Source: an uncultured Pirellulaceae bacterium
GTDB taxonomy: Bacteria > Planctomycetota > Planctomycetia > Pirellulales > Pirellulaceae
Assembly: GCA_938083195.1 (NCBI GenBank)
Contig: CALKCK010000007.1
Span: 1 to 64,000 of the forward strand
Direction of reading: 5' to 3'
DNA length: 64,000 nucleotides
Shown here: positions 41,212 through 50,367 of the stretch, piece after piece
How the letters are laid out: each line of letters begins with the position of its first letter
How positions within the stretch are numbered: the first letter of the stretch is position 1
The notes under the pieces: generated by a model
Told to the model about the DNA's origin: nothing
Databases searched by the model: none
What the model saw: the letters and a program-made list of their open reading frames with translations, nothing else
Program-made: the position numbers and the translations under genes

Positions 41212-42678
41212 TCAGACAACAGTCTCTAAATACTGGTTGCACGCCTCGGCGGCTTGCCTGCCTTCTCGGATAGCCCAAACGACGAGACTCTGCCCGCGTC
41301 GACAATCACCGGCCGCAAAGACACCGGGTTGACTCGTTTCGTAATCGGATGTGTTGGCTAGAATGTTCGATCGTGGGCCGATTTCCAAACCGAATGCCTC
41401 TGAGATTCCGGGCTCCGGTCCTGTGAATCCGAGTGCCAGAAACGCTAAATCAGCGTCAATTAGTTTCTCACTACCAGCGACGGGTGAAAACGGCGCAACC
41501 CCGGGTCGCTCGACACTCCAATCAACTTCAACTGTTCTTAACGCAGTCAGGTTCCAGTCGGCGTCTGGAAGGAATTCGACCGTCTCAATATTAAACGAAC
41601 GGGGGTCCTGCCCGTAAATCGCCTTTGCTTCGGCATGTCCATAGTCAGTGCGGAAAATTAAGGGCCATTGTGGCCAGGGATTTGAATCTGCTCGGGATTG
41701 AGGCGGGCAATCGACAATTTCTAAATTGACGACACTTTTACACCCCTGGCGAATAGCGGTTCCGATGCAGTCCGTTCCAGTATCTCCGCCGCCGATCACG
41801 ACGACATTTTTATCCTTGGCGGAAATGATTGCTTCCGTTCCGTCGAGTAACGACGCCGTAGAACCTCGGAGATAATCCATTGCGAAATGAATGCCGTTGG
41901 TAGATCGTCCCGGTATTTTGAGATCCCGGGGAGCGGTTGAGCCGACACAGATCACGACGGCGTCGAATTGAGAACGAATCTCCTCCGCGGAAATCGTAAC
42001 GCCGACTTCCATACTGGTTTTAAATTGAATACCTTCCTGTCGCAACAAATCCAATCGTCGATCGACGACATCTTTGCCGAGCTTCATGTTGGGAATCCCG
42101 TACATCAGCAACCCACCAATGCGATCATCTCGCTCAAATACAGTCACTTCATGGCCGAGTTGATTTAAATTATCAGCCGCCGCAAGGCCTGCGGGGCCCG
42201 ATCCGATTACCGCAATGGTTTTTCCAGAGCGTTCTTGGGGAATTCGAGGCAGGACCCACCCTTGCGAAAATCCGCGATCAATTATGTTTCGTTCGATACT
42301 CTTGATCGTCACAGCGGGCTCGTTAATTCCAAGCACGCAGGAACCTTCACACGGAGCAGGGCAGACTCTTCCTGTAAATTCGGGAAAATTATTGGTTAGA
42401 TGAAGACGGTCCAGCGCTTCTTTCCATTTTCCACGATAAACCAAATCGTTCCATTCAGGGATCAGATTATTAACGGGACAGCCAGTTGCCAATCGATCAA
42501 TCGTCTGCCCGGTATGGCAAAAGGGCACGCCGCAATCCATACAACGGGCACCTTGTGTCTGCAGATCCCCTTCGTCAATTTGCACAAGAAACTCGTTCCA
42601 GTCGCCAATGCGAGTGTTCGGATCGCGTCGATCTTCATCGACGCGATCAAATTCAATGAATCCCGTTGGTTTACCCAT
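41212..42678 (-). CDS. gltD: Glutamate synthase small (beta) subunit
   Basis: A 488-residue NADPH-dependent electron-input subunit; it carries FAD and iron-sulfur clusters and passes electrons to the large subunit. N-terminal cluster motifs are CMDCGVPFCHTG, GCPVNNLIPEWNDLV and CPAPCEGSC. The FAD-binding VIGSGPAGLAAADNL and the NADPH-binding VIGGGDTGTDCIGTA are both present, as is the terminal FAAGDCRRGQSLVVWAI. The ATG at 42678 (MGKPTGFIEFDR) matches the family N-terminus and has a GGGAG upstream; an earlier in-frame ATG at 42732 is unlikely. It follows gltB by about 50 bases on the same strand. Confidence 0.96.
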   Translation of the reverse strand: MGKPTGFIEFDRVDEDRRDPNTRIGDWNEFLVQIDEGDLQTQGARCMDCGVPFCHTGQTIDRLATGCPVNNLIPEWNDLVYRGKWKEALDRLHLTNNFPEFTGRVCPAPCEGSCVLGINEPAVTIKSIERNIIDRGFSQGWVLPRIPQERSGKTIAVIGSGPAGLAAADNLNQLGHEVTVFERDDRIGGLLMYGIPNMKLGKDVVDRRLDLLRQEGIQFKTSMEVGVTISAEEIRSQFDAVVICVGSTAPRDLKIPGRSTNGIHFAMDYLRGSTASLLDGTEAIISAKDKNVVVIGGGDTGTDCIGTAIRQGCKSVVNLEIVDCPPQSRADSNPWPQWPLIFRTDYGHAEAKAIYGQDPRSFNIETVEFLPDADWNLTALRTVEVDWSVERPGVAPFSPVAGSEKLIDADLAFLALGFTGPEPGISEAFGLEIGPRSNILANTSDYETSQPGVFAAGDCRRGQSLVVWAIREGRQAAEACNQYLETVV

Positions 42679-42728
42679 AGCTCTAATGAACTCCCTTTCC
42701 GTGTTGTAAACGGTAAAAAAACCTAGCT

Positions 42729-45700
42729 TCACCTTCCCAAAGATTCAGCCGATTTTTGCTCCAGAATTTTGCGGTACAAGCTGGGAATGATTTTTTTGAA
42801 TGCGCCAACAGCAGAGTCCCACTGCTCTAGAATCGCTGTGGCGACATTCGACTCCGTAAATTGTGCGTGCTTTTTTATCATTTCATGCAATTCGTCTCGA
42901 TCTTCTTGACTGTGAACCGAATCTATTTCAACCAATTCAAGATTGAGATTGTTTAAAAGGCAATCGTCGGGGTCGTAAAGATAGGCGATGCCTCCGGACA
43001 TGCCTGCCGCGAAATTGCGCCCGATTGCCCCAAGAATGACGACTCTTCCGCCCGTCATGTATTCACAACCGTGATCGCCGACTCCCTCCACAACTGCAAC
43101 CGCCCCCGAATTACGAACGGCAAACCGTTCTGCGGCAACCCCGCAAAAATAGGCCTCGCCGGCAGTCGCGCCATAAAGTGCGACGTTGCCAATGATGATA
43201 TTGTCTTCGGCGGCGAACGTGGCAGATCGGGGTGGACGGACGACCAAACGACCGCCAGACATTCCTTTACCGACGTAGTCGTTTGCATCCCCTTCAACTT
43301 GAATAGAAATACCACCCGCTAAAAACGCACCAAGGCTCTGTCCAGCCGAGCCTTTGAAGTTGATGCAAATTGTATTTTCCGGAAGTCCATCTGGGCCATG
43401 CGTTTTCACAACATGGTGGCTCAGAATAGCTCCAACTGATCGATCTGTATTCTTTATCTCAGATTCGATTTCAACCCTCTGCCGTGTTTGGATTGAATTC
43501 TGTGCTTGCTCAAGAATTTTCCAGTCAAGCACATCATCGAGGGCATGGTCTTGATCGACGGTGCAATAAACTTGGACGCCATCATGAAATCCAACCGCTG
43601 GTGCTAATAGCTTTGACAGGTCAATACCTTTAGCTTTCCAGTGCTCAACAGCATGATCCACATCGAGTGCGTCCACTCTCCCAACCATTTCATTGATGGA
43701 GCGAAAACCTAGATCCGCCATGATTTGCCGAGCCTCTTCAGCTACCATGAATAGATAGTTTACGACGTGCTCAGGTTTTCCCTTAAACTTCTTGCGGAGC
43801 TCGGTGTCCTGTGTCGCGATTCCGACCGGACAAGTGTTTAAATGACACTTCCGCATCATGATACAACCCATCGTGATTAGTGGAGCCGTCGCAAATCCGT
43901 ATTCCTCGGCACCAAGTAACGTCGCGATCACGACATCACGACCTGTTTTTAACTGACCATCCGTTTGCAATCGAGTCCGACTGCGGAGGTCATTCATGAC
44001 CAGCGTCTGATGGGTCTCCGCGATACCAAGTTCCCAAGGCATTCCAGCATGTTTAATGCTGGTCAATGGCGAGGCGCCGGTGCCTCCGCCGGAACCAGAG
44101 ATAAGAATGTTATCTGCGTGAGCTTTTGCAACTCCCGCAGCAATCGTCCCAACGCCAACTTCCGAGACTAGTTTCACACTAATTCTCGCGGTAGGGTTTG
44201 CATTTTTAAGATCAAAAATCAGTTGAGCCAAATCCTCAATTGAATAAATATCGTGATGGGGCGGCGGACTAATTAACGTGACCCCAGGGGTGGAGCGCCG
44301 AGTGTCCGCAATGGTTTGATTAACCTTATGCCCGGGAAGTTCACCCCCTTCACCAGGCTTCGCCCCTTGAGCCATCTTAATTTGAATCTCGTCTGCGTTA
44401 CTCAAATAGTATGCAGTGACCCCAAATCTACCAGAAGCTACTTGTTTGATCGCTGATCGACGCAAATCTCCGTTCGCGTCAGGTTCAAACCGATCATAAT
44501 TTTCACCTCCCTCGCCGGTATTACTTTTGCCTTCCAATCGATTCATGGCGATGGCGAGTGTTTCGTGCGCTTCACCTGAAATGGATCCATAACTCATCGC
44601 ACCGGTACAAAAACGTTTGACGATTTCCTTCGCCGATTCCACCTGTTGGATTGGGATTGAGGTTCTGGAGCGGAATTTCAATAATCCACGTAGATGACAT
44701 TCGCGGGCAGTTTGTTGGTTAATCGCAGTTGAGAATCGTTTGTAGGCATCTGGGTCTCCCGCCCGTGCGGCTTGCTGGATGTTTGCAATGTTCAACGGGG
44801 TCCAAGCGTGTTTTTCTCCATCCTGACGCCAATGGACAGATCCTTCTGTTTTTAATTCAACGACTGGCAGCACTGAATTTCGTTTTTGAGGCGTGTATCC
44901 TAGCTCATGCCTGCGGAGCGCTTCGTTCGACAGCACATCGAATCCGACGCCTTCGATTCGGCTGGCAGTGCCTGGAAACGACTTTTTAATCACTTCTGAA
45001 TTAAGTCCAATGGCTTCAAAAATTCTTGCCCCTTTGTAACTCGCCAGAGTAGAGATACCCATTTTGGCAAGCACCTTTAACATTCCCTTATGGACGCCAG
45101 TTCGATACGAAGCGATGCACTGCTCTGCCGTTAGATCCGAATCCGGCGAGTTTTTGTGATGGTCTATAATGGCTTCTAAAGCGAGATAGGGATGGATCGC
45201 ATCCGCTCCAAATCCAGTCAAAAGACAATGGTGGTGAACCTCCCTTGCCTCACCGGTCTCGACGGCAATCCCAATTCGCGTTCTCAGTTCCTTATCGACT
45301 AGGTGATGATGAACTGTGCTCGTTGCAAGCAATGCACTTAGCGGCACACGTTGGGGGCTAATGCCTCGATCAGATAGAATGAGAATCGCACATCCATCTG
45401 AAATTGCAGATTCCGCTTCCTTGCAAATTCGTTTTAGAGCCGCTGTAAAGCCATCTAAGCCTTCATTTTTGTCAAACGTAATATCGAGGGTGCGGGATTT
45501 CCAACCTCGGTAATCCATGTTTTTGATGCCCGCCATTTGTTGGAAATCAAGAATTGGATTGTCCAGCAGCAACCGATTGCACTGTTTTTCTGTTGTCTCT
45601 AAAAGATTGCCTTCTGGGCCGATATAGCATTCGACGGACATCACAATCTCTTCGCGAATTGAATCGATCGGAGGATTGGTGACCTGCGCAAAAAGTTGCG

Positions 45701-47267
45701 AGAAATAGTCATACAACAGGCGTGGCTTATCGCTCAAACAGGCCAACGCTGCGTCGTTGCCCATCGAAAGGATAGGATCTTTTTTTACCTTGACCAATGG
45801 CAATAACATATATTTCATGGTCTCAGTGGTGTAGCCAAAGGCTCTCATCTGAGACAGTCGCTCCGCTTTCGAGAGCGGAGGAATTGGTTCGGACTTTTCC
45901 AATTGATCAAATGTAATTCTTTGATCTTTCATCCACTGAGCATAAGGGCGTCGATTGGAAATCTCTGTTTTTAATTCATCGTCTGAAATGATTCGTTTGT
46001 TTTCGAAATCAACTAAAAACATCTTTCCCGGTTCAAGCCGTCCCTTTTTTATGATTTTTGCAGGGTCAATCTCAAGGACGCCAACTTCGCTGGCCATGAC
46101 GACTCGATTGTCATCAGTCACATAATAGCGGCTAGGTCGAAGCCCATTCCTATCGAGCACCGCACCAATCATTCGACCGTCGGTAAAAGATATTGAAGAC
46201 GGACCGTCCCAGGGTTCTTGGAGGCATGAGTGATATTCATAGAATGCCCGTTTGTCTTCGGGCATCGTTTGGTGGTTTCGCCAGGCCTCTGGGATCATCA
46301 TCATCACGACTTCGGGCAGGTCGCGCCCTGCCATCATTAGCAACTCCATCGCATTGTCAAATTCCCCTGAATCACTGCATCCTTGTTCCGTAACGGGCAT
46401 GACAGTTTTTAATGGAGCGTTGAAGACATCGCTGGCCATAAGGCCTTGCCGAGCCGCAATCCAGTTCCTATTACCTCGTAAGGTGTTAATCTCTCCATTG
46501 TGAGCCATCCATCGAAGGGGTTGGGCTCGGGACCAGTTAGGTAATGTGTTGGTGGAAAAACGAGAGTGCACCATTGCGAGATGACTTTGGTAGTCTTCAT
46601 CCTGGAGATCGACAAAGAATTCAGGCAGCTGGGCTGTTGATAACATCCCCTTGTAAACAATAATTCGGGACGAAAGCGAACATACATAAAACAAGTCGGA
46701 TGAATACATGCCGCTTGAGCGGATCGATTTCGTTGTTGATTTTCGAATCTGATAAAGACGGCGTTCAAAATCAGCTTGACTAATTCCGTTCTGTGCACCA
46801 ATGAAGACTTGAAGAATCGTCGGCATGCTGCGAATTGCAGTCGGACCGATTCCAGACCCCTCAACATCGACCGGAACCTCCCGCCAAGCGATTAATTTTT
46901 GACCAAAACGATTGGTGTTTTGAGCGAAGATTAGTTTGCACTTTTCTCGCTCTTCTTCATCGGTGGGGAGAAAGACGTTACCCACCCCAATAAAGGGAAA
47001 ATCGGTAGAGAAGCCGATTCGTTTTGCCAATTTTGCGACTAACTTGGTGGGAATACCCGTTAGAATTCCCGCGCCATCGCCTGTTTCGGGTTCGCAGCCG
47101 CACGCTCCGCGGTGCTCCATTCTCGATAAAATTCCACACGCATCGACGACAATCTGCCGCGATGCGACTCCGTCAATTTGAGCTACAAATCCAACGCCAC
47201 AGCTGTCATGTTCGTATTCAGGGCTATATAGAGTACTTTCCGCGGCAAACGGTTTCGGTGTGGTCAA
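42729..47267 (-). CDS. gltB: Glutamate synthase large (alpha) subunit
   Basis: About 1512 residues. It makes glutamate from glutamine and 2-oxoglutarate with electrons from GltD. The N-terminal glutamine amidotransferase nucleophile is the Cys of EHDSCGVGFVAQ, preceded by a short propeptide. The FMN-binding synthase domain contains GEGGELPGHKVN and GGTGASPLTSIKHAG. The 3Fe-4S motif is CIMMRKCHLNTCPVG, and the C-terminal GXGXG domain is present (GGRVVILGAIGRNFAAGMSG). No ATG precedes the active-site Cys; a TTG at 47267 has AAGGA 7 bases upstream and gives a propeptide of about 22 residues. A TTG at 47375 is an alternative start. Confidence 0.95.
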   Translation of the reverse strand: MTTPKPFAAESTLYSPEYEHDSCGVGFVAQIDGVASRQIVVDACGILSRMEHRGACGCEPETGDGAGILTGIPTKLVAKLAKRIGFSTDFPFIGVGNVFLPTDEEEREKCKLIFAQNTNRFGQKLIAWREVPVDVEGSGIGPTAIRSMPTILQVFIGAQNGISQADFERRLYQIRKSTTKSIRSSGMYSSDLFYVCSLSSRIIVYKGMLSTAQLPEFFVDLQDEDYQSHLAMVHSRFSTNTLPNWSRAQPLRWMAHNGEINTLRGNRNWIAARQGLMASDVFNAPLKTVMPVTEQGCSDSGEFDNAMELLMMAGRDLPEVVMMMIPEAWRNHQTMPEDKRAFYEYHSCLQEPWDGPSSISFTDGRMIGAVLDRNGLRPSRYYVTDDNRVVMASEVGVLEIDPAKIIKKGRLEPGKMFLVDFENKRIISDDELKTEISNRRPYAQWMKDQRITFDQLEKSEPIPPLSKAERLSQMRAFGYTTETMKYMLLPLVKVKKDPILSMGNDAALACLSDKPRLLYDYFSQLFAQVTNPPIDSIREEIVMSVECYIGPEGNLLETTEKQCNRLLLDNPILDFQQMAGIKNMDYRGWKSRTLDITFDKNEGLDGFTAALKRICKEAESAISDGCAILILSDRGISPQRVPLSALLATSTVHHHLVDKELRTRIGIAVETGEAREVHHHCLLTGFGADAIHPYLALEAIIDHHKNSPDSDLTAEQCIASYRTGVHKGMLKVLAKMGISTLASYKGARIFEAIGLNSEVIKKSFPGTASRIEGVGFDVLSNEALRRHELGYTPQKRNSVLPVVELKTEGSVHWRQDGEKHAWTPLNIANIQQAARAGDPDAYKRFSTAINQQTARECHLRGLLKFRSRTSIPIQQVESAKEIVKRFCTGAMSYGSISGEAHETLAIAMNRLEGKSNTGEGGENYDRFEPDANGDLRRSAIKQVASGRFGVTAYYLSNADEIQIKMAQGAKPGEGGELPGHKVNQTIADTRRSTPGVTLISPPPHHDIYSIEDLAQLIFDLKNANPTARISVKLVSEVGVGTIAAGVAKAHADNILISGSGGGTGASPLTSIKHAGMPWELGIAETHQTLVMNDLRSRTRLQTDGQLKTGRDVVIATLLGAEEYGFATAPLITMGCIMMRKCHLNTCPVGIATQDTELRKKFKGKPEHVVNYLFMVAEEARQIMADLGFRSINEMVGRVDALDVDHAVEHWKAKGIDLSKLLAPAVGFHDGVQVYCTVDQDHALDDVLDWKILEQAQNSIQTRQRVEIESEIKNTDRSVGAILSHHVVKTHGPDGLPENTICINFKGSAGQSLGAFLAGGISIQVEGDANDYVGKGMSGGRLVVRPPRSATFAAEDNIIIGNVALYGATAGEAYFCGVAAERFAVRNSGAVAVVEGVGDHGCEYMTGGRVVILGAIGRNFAAGMSGGIAYLYDPDDCLLNNLNLELVEIDSVHSQEDRDELHEMIKKHAQFTESNVATAILEQWDSAVGAFKKIIPSLYRKILEQKSAESLGR

Positions 47268-47274
47268 AATGCTA

Positions 47275-47279
47275 TCCTT
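47275..47279 (-). promoter_or_regulatory. Ribosome site supporting a TTG start for gltB
   Basis: AAGGA on the minus strand, 7 bases before TTG at 47267. It favours that codon over the upstream TTG at 47375, where I see no comparable site. Confidence 0.5.
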
Positions 47280-47375
47280 ATCGATACAGATCCGTTCCTT
47301 GATTTCCTCACTGCTGGTGAAGTCAGTCAGGAAATGCTGAGTTTTAGTGATAAACGCTTCGGAAAAAATAAGCAA

Positions 47376-47721: not shown

Positions 47722-48783
47722 ATGAACCCTTCTCCCAGCCGTTTGTTAAAGACATCCCAGCGAATCCAACTGTTGATATGTTTGACCGCGTCGATTTCTG
47801 TTAGCAGTTGTTACGCACAACAAAATTCCGAAATTCCAAGTGGAATTGCTTGGCACGGAGTGCTCACAGACGGGCTTGCCGACGCCAAGGCAACTAACCG
47901 GCCAATCATGTTGTTATCCGCCGCCCCCCAGTGCGCCGGAGTACCTGGGATGTGGTGACCGGGCAAACAGAATATGGATAGGAGTTTCCTGTCTAACGAC
48001 CAAGTCATTGAGGCGTCGCGAAATTTTGTCTGTATCCGATTGGCTACCTATGAAGATGAGGCAGAAGCAGAATTCCTGCGGACGGTCTACGTAGGTAGAA
48101 CTGGAGATCTTGAAAATACTGTGTTTGTATTAATGACACCGGATACAAAACAAAACCTTTGTCGCCCAGGACGCAGTCCAAATTTTGCCTTTCGGTCCCC
48201 AAGTAGCCTTGCTATCGAAATGAATAAAATTGCTAAAAAGTACAAAGCTTCAAATGCTGAGGTCGATCCAATTCTTCCTCAACTGAAGGACGTTCGCTTG
48301 GGCTTGAACGTTAGTTCTTGTGATGGATTGCCCTCGGTCGTTTGTGTGGCGGATGGTAATAATCCTGCTGAATTTATGCAGAACCTTCTCGCCCCATTGG
48401 CATATTCAGAAGACTTGGCCGGTAAATTTGTCTACTCCACGACTACTGATCCCTCGATGCTCAAAACAGTCCAAGGATATTCGGGGAAACCGGGAATCCT
48501 TTTGATTGAACCAGGTGATTATGGATTGGATGGCAAATTAGTAAAACTGTTCAGCCCTACGACTGAGTCAAGCGTAATCGAAAAGGCGCTAAGCGAGTAT
48601 GCAAATGGCGTCAGCAAAGTGAGCAAAAACCATTCGACTCATGTCCGAACAGGCATGAGAGAAGGTAAAGTTTGGAAAACAGAAATTCCGATAGAGGATC
48701 GAAACACTTTGCAGGCCATGCAGCGAACAAATCGTCCTTCTGGTCGAAGCGGGCCAGGCGGAAGAAGGCCTGGCGGGAATTAG
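47722..48783 (+). CDS. Secreted thioredoxin-like protein with in-frame UGA; candidate selenoprotein
   Basis: One frame of 354 codons, ATG 47722 to TAG 48783, is broken only by a UGA at 47956-47958 (codon 79). N-terminal signal peptide (LLICLTASISVSSCYA), then a thioredoxin-like domain: DAKATNRPIMLLSAAPQC, GMW-UGA-PGKQNMDRSF, FVCIRLATYEDEAEA, NTVFVLMTPDTK. In thioredoxin_7-type domains the matching segment reads W-C-x-x-C-K before a 'xxFSDxxV' helix, so the UGA sits at the first active-site Cys. A SECIS-like hairpin starts 17 bases after it. The 275 codons after the UGA stay open and show no other lesion. Selenocysteine is the favoured reading; a recent nonsense mutation or sequencing error is the alternative. 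The C-terminal half is unassigned; the tail is Gly/Arg-rich. Confidence 0.7.
47956..47958 (+). other. In-frame UGA, candidate selenocysteine codon
   Basis: Codon 79 of the thioredoxin-like gene. It follows Trp and precedes Pro-Gly-Lys, the local context of a thioredoxin active site (WCxxxK), with Cys expected at this position. Confidence 0.6.
47975..47995 (+). promoter_or_regulatory. SECIS-like hairpin downstream of the in-frame UGA
   Basis: TGGATAGGA (47975-47983) pairs with TCCTGTCTA (47987-47995): 9 pairs including two G-U, with loop GUU. The loop begins 26 bases after the UGA and starts with G. Bacterial SECIS elements lie within the coding region shortly after the UGA and carry a G among the first loop bases, so placement fits. 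The 3-base loop is at the small end. Confidence 0.5.
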
Positions 48784-48821: not shown

Positions 48822-48854
48822 AACAGGGTGTCTTTCCAAGGCACCCTGTTTTAT
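48822..48854 (+). terminator. Rho-independent terminator after the selenoprotein candidate
   Basis: AACAGGGTG (48822-48830) and CACCCTGTT (48842-48850) form a perfect 9-base-pair stem followed by TTAT. It ends the unit 40 bases after the TAG at 48783, supporting a transcript that spans the in-frame UGA. Confidence 0.8.
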
Positions 48855-49665: not shown

Positions 49666-50367
49666 TTATTGCAAGTCCGTTCCGCTTGGTTTGGTTTTCA
49701 AGATGGATTGGATGTAATTTTGAAGGACGGAGATAGCCATTCTGTTTCTGCCGCCGCGTGGCACAATTAGATCCGCGTGTTTTTTCCCAGGATAGAGAAA
49801 CTCGTGAAACATCGGTCGCACGGTTTCATGATATTGCTGTAAAACAGAATCAAGAGTTCGCCCTCGTTCGTTGATGTCTCTTACGAGCCGACGAGATAAG
49901 CAAACGTCTAAATCCACATCAACGAATATTTTCATGTCTAACAGATCTCGCAGTTCTGGAGGGTGGAAAATCAGTATTCCTTCGACCAAAATTATGTTCG
50001 CGGGATTAAAATTTGTAACATGCGGACTTCGATTATGCTGTGAATAGTCGTACTGCGGAACTTCGACACTCTTCCCTAGTGCCAAATCAGTTAGATGCTG
50101 GATTAATAATTCGTGTTCGAGTGCATCGGGGTGGTCATAGTTGACGACCTCGCGCTCCGCGAATGTCAGACCGTCGCGACAACGATAATAACAATCCTCG
50201 TTAATTATTTTGATTTGCTCATCACCCAAAGCTTCATCAATGGAATCGCAAAGTTGAGACGCTAATAAACTTTTTCCCGAACCCGATGCGCCAGCGATTC
50301 CGATAAATATTGGTTTTTCTAACACTTCTATTTTTTCTCTAATTAACGCGGCCAATAAAACAACCAC
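49666..50367 (-). CDS. udk: Uridine kinase
   Basis: A 233-residue nucleoside kinase (pyrimidine salvage: uridine or cytidine plus nucleotide triphosphate gives UMP or CMP). P-loop IGIAGASGSGKSLLA is near the N-terminus. NEDCYYR and NYDHPDALEH correspond to the substrate-binding blocks, followed by ILVEGILIF, then DVCLSRRLVRDINERGRTL (the lid). Length is normal. Cytoplasmic. The first about 12 residues are extra compared with typical Udk, so a slightly later start is possible. It may share a transcript with the downstream membrane protein gene. Confidence 0.93.
   Translation of the reverse strand: MVVLLAALIREKIEVLEKPIFIGIAGASGSGKSLLASQLCDSIDEALGDEQIKIINEDCYYRCRDGLTFAEREVVNYDHPDALEHELLIQHLTDLALGKSVEVPQYDYSQHNRSPHVTNFNPANIILVEGILIFHPPELRDLLDMKIFVDVDLDVCLSRRLVRDINERGRTLDSVLQQYHETVRPMFHEFLYPGKKHADLIVPRGGRNRMAISVLQNYIQSILKTKPSGTDLQ

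Follow-up and report, generated by a model that had tools for sequence, protein, structure and literature searches.

A UGA codon that very probably encodes selenocysteine in a thioredoxin-like protein family of Planctomycetota

An interrupted reading frame in a Pirellulaceae contig

The window analyzed here, i.e., the whole stretch of 64,000 nucleotides from an uncultured Pirellulaceae bacterium (assembly GCA_938083195.1, contig CALKCK010000007.1, positions 1 to 64,000), carries at 47722-48783 a frame cut by a TGA, and raises the question of whether this codon ends a protein or is read as selenocysteine (Sec). The frame encodes 353 residues followed by TAG, and the TGA at 47956-47958 (codon 79), preceded by Trp and followed by Pro-Gly-Lys, is its one internal stop. 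An initial annotation had described a frame interrupted by UGA alone and an undamaged coding stretch 3' of it; the translation agrees on both points, with no further lesion downstream. Standard ORF calling at 47722..48783 returns only a truncated 269-aa ORF starting at 47974. This is the sole place in the window where stop-to-stop stretches of at least 60 and 100 codons are joined across a TGA, a codon that serves elsewhere in the window as an ordinary stop, terminating 8 of the 40 long ORFs chosen for this count from the window's ORF list. The features of the locus are as follows:

47722..48783, forward strand: very probable selenoprotein gene, 353 residues, Sec at 79, TAG stop (translation, ORF list, homologue searches)
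47722..47820, forward strand: probable export signal, with a basic start, a hydrophobic stretch and then CYAQ (translation read by eye)
47932..47934, forward strand: codon of Cys71, 8 residues before Sec (sequence; Cys in 90/91 stretches with context)
47956..47958, forward strand: UGA codon for the putative Sec79, aligned with the first of the two thioredoxin CxxC cysteines (sequence, homologues, profile-profile alignment)
47975..47995, forward strand: SECIS-like hairpin of the bacterial type, with 9 pairs and a GUU loop (fold, covariation, synonymous constraint, bSECIS rules)
48031..48033, forward strand: codon of Cys104, the second conserved Cys, 25 residues C-terminal to Sec (89/91 Sec-form sequences)
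48823..48849, forward strand: terminator-like hairpin after the gene (read by eye from the sequence)

The terminator that had been proposed after the TAG is visible directly in the sequence, as a hairpin with arms 48823-48830 and 48842-48849 and a U-rich tail. It has no entry in our terminator scan because its 11-base loop exceeds the permitted 3-8, and neither the promoter nor the terminator scan of the window gave anything above shuffles. The neighboring genes (glutamate synthase, its small subunit-like neighbor, uridine kinase, DUF481 and PQQ-repeat proteins) give no hint of function. The glutamate synthase large subunit (41212-47375, reverse strand) has the small-subunit-like gene upstream, and a uridine kinase-like gene (49666-50367, reverse strand) lies downstream; they have no link to selenium.

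Conservation of the UGA in homologues

Among 92 fetched homologous stretches covering the UGA column (96 hmmsearch stretches minus two with negative scores and two falling short of the column), 91 carry TGA and one carries Cys. The initial annotation had suggested examining this column, and no Trp, Arg or gap was found there. The fetched loci are part of the rows matched in the genome searches, which gave a similar picture at three taxonomic depths. A match was found in 24 of 60 related genomes, with one TGA in 33 of 35 rows, the other two rows being partial. With a profile built from 27 members (A1), matches were obtained in 56 of 199 genomes of the bacterial family, a count that includes distant matches near E 1e-5 in proteins of ∼690 residues; of the 54 rows that match most strongly (E ≤4.5e-84), 53 have the TGA and one, in G123, has no stop, and a further 18 rows with weaker matches are either partial or distant. 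Across the phylum, 53 of 392 genomes matched at E 1e-8, with TGA in 55 of 60 rows, and the five non-TGA rows start after the Sec column. Three sequences (L113, L131, L132) have a second TGA, at the protein end.

The genome lies close to Mariniblastus: contig JAPKBL010000038.1 of Mariniblastus sp. ANT-37 has a homologue at 82%, the sole relative from a single-protein contig search, a method that detects close relatives only. No relative was found among 94 pattern stretches from viral contigs, and plasmids gave no match. L148 (G288) is a gene split by a frame change. At L090 (G168:C186:70277-72322), two divergent copies of the gene are adjacent to each other (E 1.3e-105 and 6.4e-119).

A SECIS-like hairpin inside the coding sequence

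Over 60 bases counted from the UGA, the minimum-energy fold gives the same nine pairs as the hairpin initially annotated at 47975-47995: U75-A95, G76-U94, G77-C93, A78-U92, U79-G91, A80-U90, G81-C89, G82-C88, and A83-U87 (add 47900 to each number). Its loop, GUU, occupies 47984-47986 and thus begins, as had been stated, with the 26th base past the UGA, leaving 25 bases in between. Bacterial SECIS (bSECIS) elements are described as having a loop of 3-9 nt, a stem of 4-16 bp, a G in the first two loop positions and a distance of 16-37 nt from the UGA, and by the rules as set out in that source the window hairpin (GUU, 9 pairs, 25 nt) lies within the loop, stem and spacing ranges (PMC13188914).

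The hairpin also covaries among homologues, with scores that are inflated by the relatedness of the sequences: double-change cells number 76 vs. 22.8 in shuffled alignments of the 91 sequences (36 vs. 15.8 with 29 sequences), pairing cells amount to 87.7% vs. 76.9%, and the covariation score is 0.410 vs. 0.213 shuffled, slid versions of the hairpin reaching at most 0.139. Two measures are weak, namely the number of pairs with any double change (7 vs. 5.3; 53 of 500 shuffles as high, and 9 for a slide by -1) and the number of further pair types (18 vs. 16.1; 77 of 500 shuffles as high). For L018, L144 and a few other sequences, the agreement with the nine pairs is poor. Synonymous constraint gives independent support for a SECIS beside covariation. 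The fraction of same-residue pairs sharing a codon is 0.75 over positions +7 to +12 relative to Sec, vs. 0.38 for 45 codons on the flanks (maximum 0.63). All 77 Ser residues at +9 are encoded by AGT and 47 of the 54 Arg residues at +8 by AGG, whereas CGN codons prevail for Arg at -22, -19, +21, and +27. Synonymous constraint is not seen at codon +12 (0.40).

Selenocysteine machinery in the same genomes

All the sel genes that the initial annotation had proposed looking for were recovered from the window's own genome: tRNA-Sec (C17:29815-29910, 67.4 bits), selB (C1:84972-86867), selD (C40:5264-6172), and selA (C7:83265-84623), the latter on the same contig as the window, ∼19 kb past the end of the window. 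The selD of this genome sits within a UGA-free open frame of ∼740 aa, as long as a fusion might be, and in three genomes of the same genus (G021, G023, and G024; L062-L064) selD has an in-frame TGA.

In the 60 related genomes, tRNA-Sec, counted above 60 bits (our own cut, as the family gives many matches near 50 bits or lower), occurs in 22 of 24 family-positive vs. 18 of 36 family-negative genomes, selB above cut-off in 22 of 24 vs. 20 of 36, and selA above cut-off in 20 of 24 vs. 21 of 36. Across the wider phylum, selB matches exceed the cut-off in 50 of 52 positives vs. 1 of the 20 negatives listed, the latter being very complete genomes clustered in few groups and thus not a fair sample for the contrast. 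Several genomes with the TGA gene show incomplete machinery: none of selA, selB and tRNA-Sec was found in G150 and G211, tRNA-Sec alone in G029 (99% complete) and G002, where selA and selB were not found, and selB was not found in G513 and G568. Assembly gaps are a likely cause. In four relatives of G029 (G118, G168, G190, and G204) selA and selB lie close together, and our guess is that one assembly gap could drop both from G029.

Relationship to known thioredoxin-like selenoproteins

When the family profile was compared with a profile of eight VPGUxxT-like proteins from the group, 101 columns aligned (E 1.2e-6, probability 90.7%) with coinciding Sec columns, and the Sec would therefore replace the first of the two CxxC cysteines. 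This is where the initial annotation had put the UGA, by reference to a WCxxCK motif: the column agrees, and in detail the site reads UxxK, with Lys in the place of the second Cys. The window protein is a distant relative of the VPGUxxT selenoproteins (NF041382 for type 1, NF041383 for type 2, 'OS_HP5'), sharing with them a homologous N-terminal domain, the Sec column, and VPG before Sec. Yet, in VPGUxxT-like proteins UxxC follows VPG directly, whereas the window family has two residues in between (often MW, giving VPGMWU), conserves an upstream Cys at -8 with about seven extra residues before Sec beside it, and has UxxK/Y/F where VPGUxxT has its second Cys. The best scores against the two VPGUxxT models were 16.0 and 12.2 bits in the five proteins scanned, far below the cut-offs of 350 and 275 bits. 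Proteins resembling VPGUxxT type 1 do exist in the same genus and order (L065-L074), with an in-frame TGA in 11 of 13 rows above 100 bits, and the type 1 cut-off of 350 bits was reached in none of 40 genomes (best 141).

The Trx7/PDZ family (NF041199) is similar in its Thioredoxin_7-like N-terminal domain (best E 0.0019; 7 of 27 members at E ≤0.1), and differs in its CxxU motif vs. UxxK/Y/F; scores of 11-14 bits stay below its cut-off of 300 bits. Because the cut-offs were not reached and the motifs differ, membership in VPGUxxT or Trx7/PDZ was rejected and the proteins were filed outside both. Pfam Thioredoxin_7 (PF13899) matches 24 of the 27 members at E ≤0.1; L015 passes its cut-off (29.3 vs. 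27 bits) and the window protein, at 18.1 bits, lies below it, and the family differs from PF13899 by its extra residues before the motif and the absence of the second Cys. None of the 27 A1 members reaches the cut-off of any NCBIfam model (best E 0.0019). In the longer ORF L019, a lipoprotein model matches below cut-off (E 5.9e-6) and outside the Sec domain. A profile search of the PDB gave a best E of 0.49, and an AlphaFold model from a two-row alignment (window protein and L061) had a mean pLDDT of 34.6, too low for a fold to be read from it; no assignment was obtained for the C-terminal half.

A 2026 inventory lists 119 selenoprotein families or subfamilies in its Table 1, none of which has the motif of the window protein, and the string 'planctomyc' is absent from its text (PMC13188914). 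An earlier study reported putative selenoproteins in Planctomycetes P1 and P2 based on in-frame UGA and SECIS, and its account of them names formate dehydrogenase and formylmethanofuran dehydrogenase; it concerns the same phylum, and the full list in its S9 Table may overlap with the window family and contain an earlier mention of it (PMC4807772, 2016). No description of the family was found in literature search listings or in passages from openly accessible papers. As filed here from its sequence features, the window family appears to be a new family, a variant of the thioredoxin-like selenoproteins.

Residues of the active site and the single Cys form

Of the 92 stretches, 91 (L105 among them) have sufficient context for counting active-site residues. 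The residue before Sec (-1) is W in 78 of them and F in the other 13, the rows with F clustering together in the tree (support 100/98). At -8, Cys is found in 90 stretches and Asn in one; the C-x7-U arrangement had been pointed out initially for the window protein. At +3, where CxxC has its second Cys, the residue is K (65), Y (23), or F (3), and Cys at +25 is found in 89 of 91 Sec-form sequences. The one exception at -8, L146 (G513), is a natural variant of the C-x7-U arrangement, with Asn at -8, Cys at -11, and UKGK instead of UPGK, and it keeps Sec.

The single Cys homologue, L105 in G123, reads SCAGVSGMW-C-PGK, and no SECIS hairpin was seen in the DNA after its Cys codon. In its home genus (g34), neither selA nor selB above cut-off nor tRNA-Sec at E 1e-9 was detected in the three genomes searched. 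A genome of the same genus as G123, G182, holds a C-terminal piece only. In the tree, the Cys row forms a long branch at an open fork, so that either Cys or Sec may have come first. The Cys homologue (L105 477-1790, reverse strand) carries at its N-terminus a stretch resembling, when read by eye, two EF-hand motifs.

Alternative readings of the UGA and of the conserved cysteines

Computation strongly supports Sec coding, a SECIS, and Sec machinery in the same genome, and the claim of a selenoprotein made initially finds its backing in the TGA of 91 of 92 homologues, the covarying and synonymously constrained hairpin, and the sel genes. Judging from these data, it is very probable that Sec is inserted at the UGA and that the gene is an intact selenoprotein gene. 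Could the UGA instead be a real stop, separating a 78-residue exported peptide from a 269-residue protein starting at ATG 47974? Such an ORF does exist, but codon conservation runs in a single frame across the UGA, including the stretch up to this ATG, which itself lies in the stem region of the hairpin and corresponds to a position (+6) where only 51 of 91 sequences have Met; moreover, Cys is the only substitute for UGA and SelB accompanies the family across genomes, making a genuine stop very improbable. Reading of the UGA as Trp or another ordinary residue, or a reassigned code, is more improbable still, with nothing found in its favor, as TGA terminates long ORFs of the window and interrupts no other such frame, Cys is the one residue seen in its place, and the codon is followed by a covarying hairpin. 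We consider a nonsense mutation, a pseudogene, or a sequencing error the least credible of all: a broken copy is known elsewhere (L148), but none of the window gene, which has no further lesion downstream, and the same codon recurs in separate genomes from several families of the phylum, which a sequencing error would not do and which contradicts this reading.

If the gene is expressed as a selenoprotein, SelB with Sec-tRNA would bind the hairpin, located 25 bases past the UGA, and the ribosome would place Sec at residue 79, where ordinary relatives carry the first Cys of CxxC. The selenol of Sec79 would likely be the catalytic atom, a nucleophile in a redox reaction. Since the second CxxC Cys is replaced by Lys, Tyr, or Phe, its selenylsulfide partner would most likely be Cys71 (C-x7-U), or else Cys104. 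We rate the chance that such a Cys-Sec pair acts as redox partners at about even. It is possible, at a probability somewhat short of even, that Sec in the same selenoprotein needs no Cys partner within the chain and serves in a one-selenol peroxidase or as a ligand of metal or selenium, the upstream Cys being structural. The missing second CxxC Cys fits this, as does L146, which lost the Cys at -8 and retained Sec, but the conservation of Cys at -8 and at +25 exceeds that of many neighboring residues, which argues against it. The N-terminal signal suggests that the window protein is probably exported, and it probably has a redox role, i.e., thiol or peroxide chemistry outside the cytoplasm.

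A family found almost only in its Sec form

The wider reading, which we hold with even confidence, is that of a family spread across many Planctomycetota lineages and occurring almost only with Sec, which would combine a new C-x7-U redox pair with Lys or Tyr in the place of the second Cys, would be missed by searches that require Cys, and whose Cys form would have arisen where the Sec machinery was lost. Deep-Sep, by its own account, may overlook selenoproteins that lack Cys homologues (PMC12013277). In the window family the ratio of Sec to Cys is reversed, which may explain its absence from lists, and annotation would treat its genes as truncated fragments. It lets one ask which chemistry needs Sec, and barely tolerates Cys, at a thioredoxin-like site without the second Cys.
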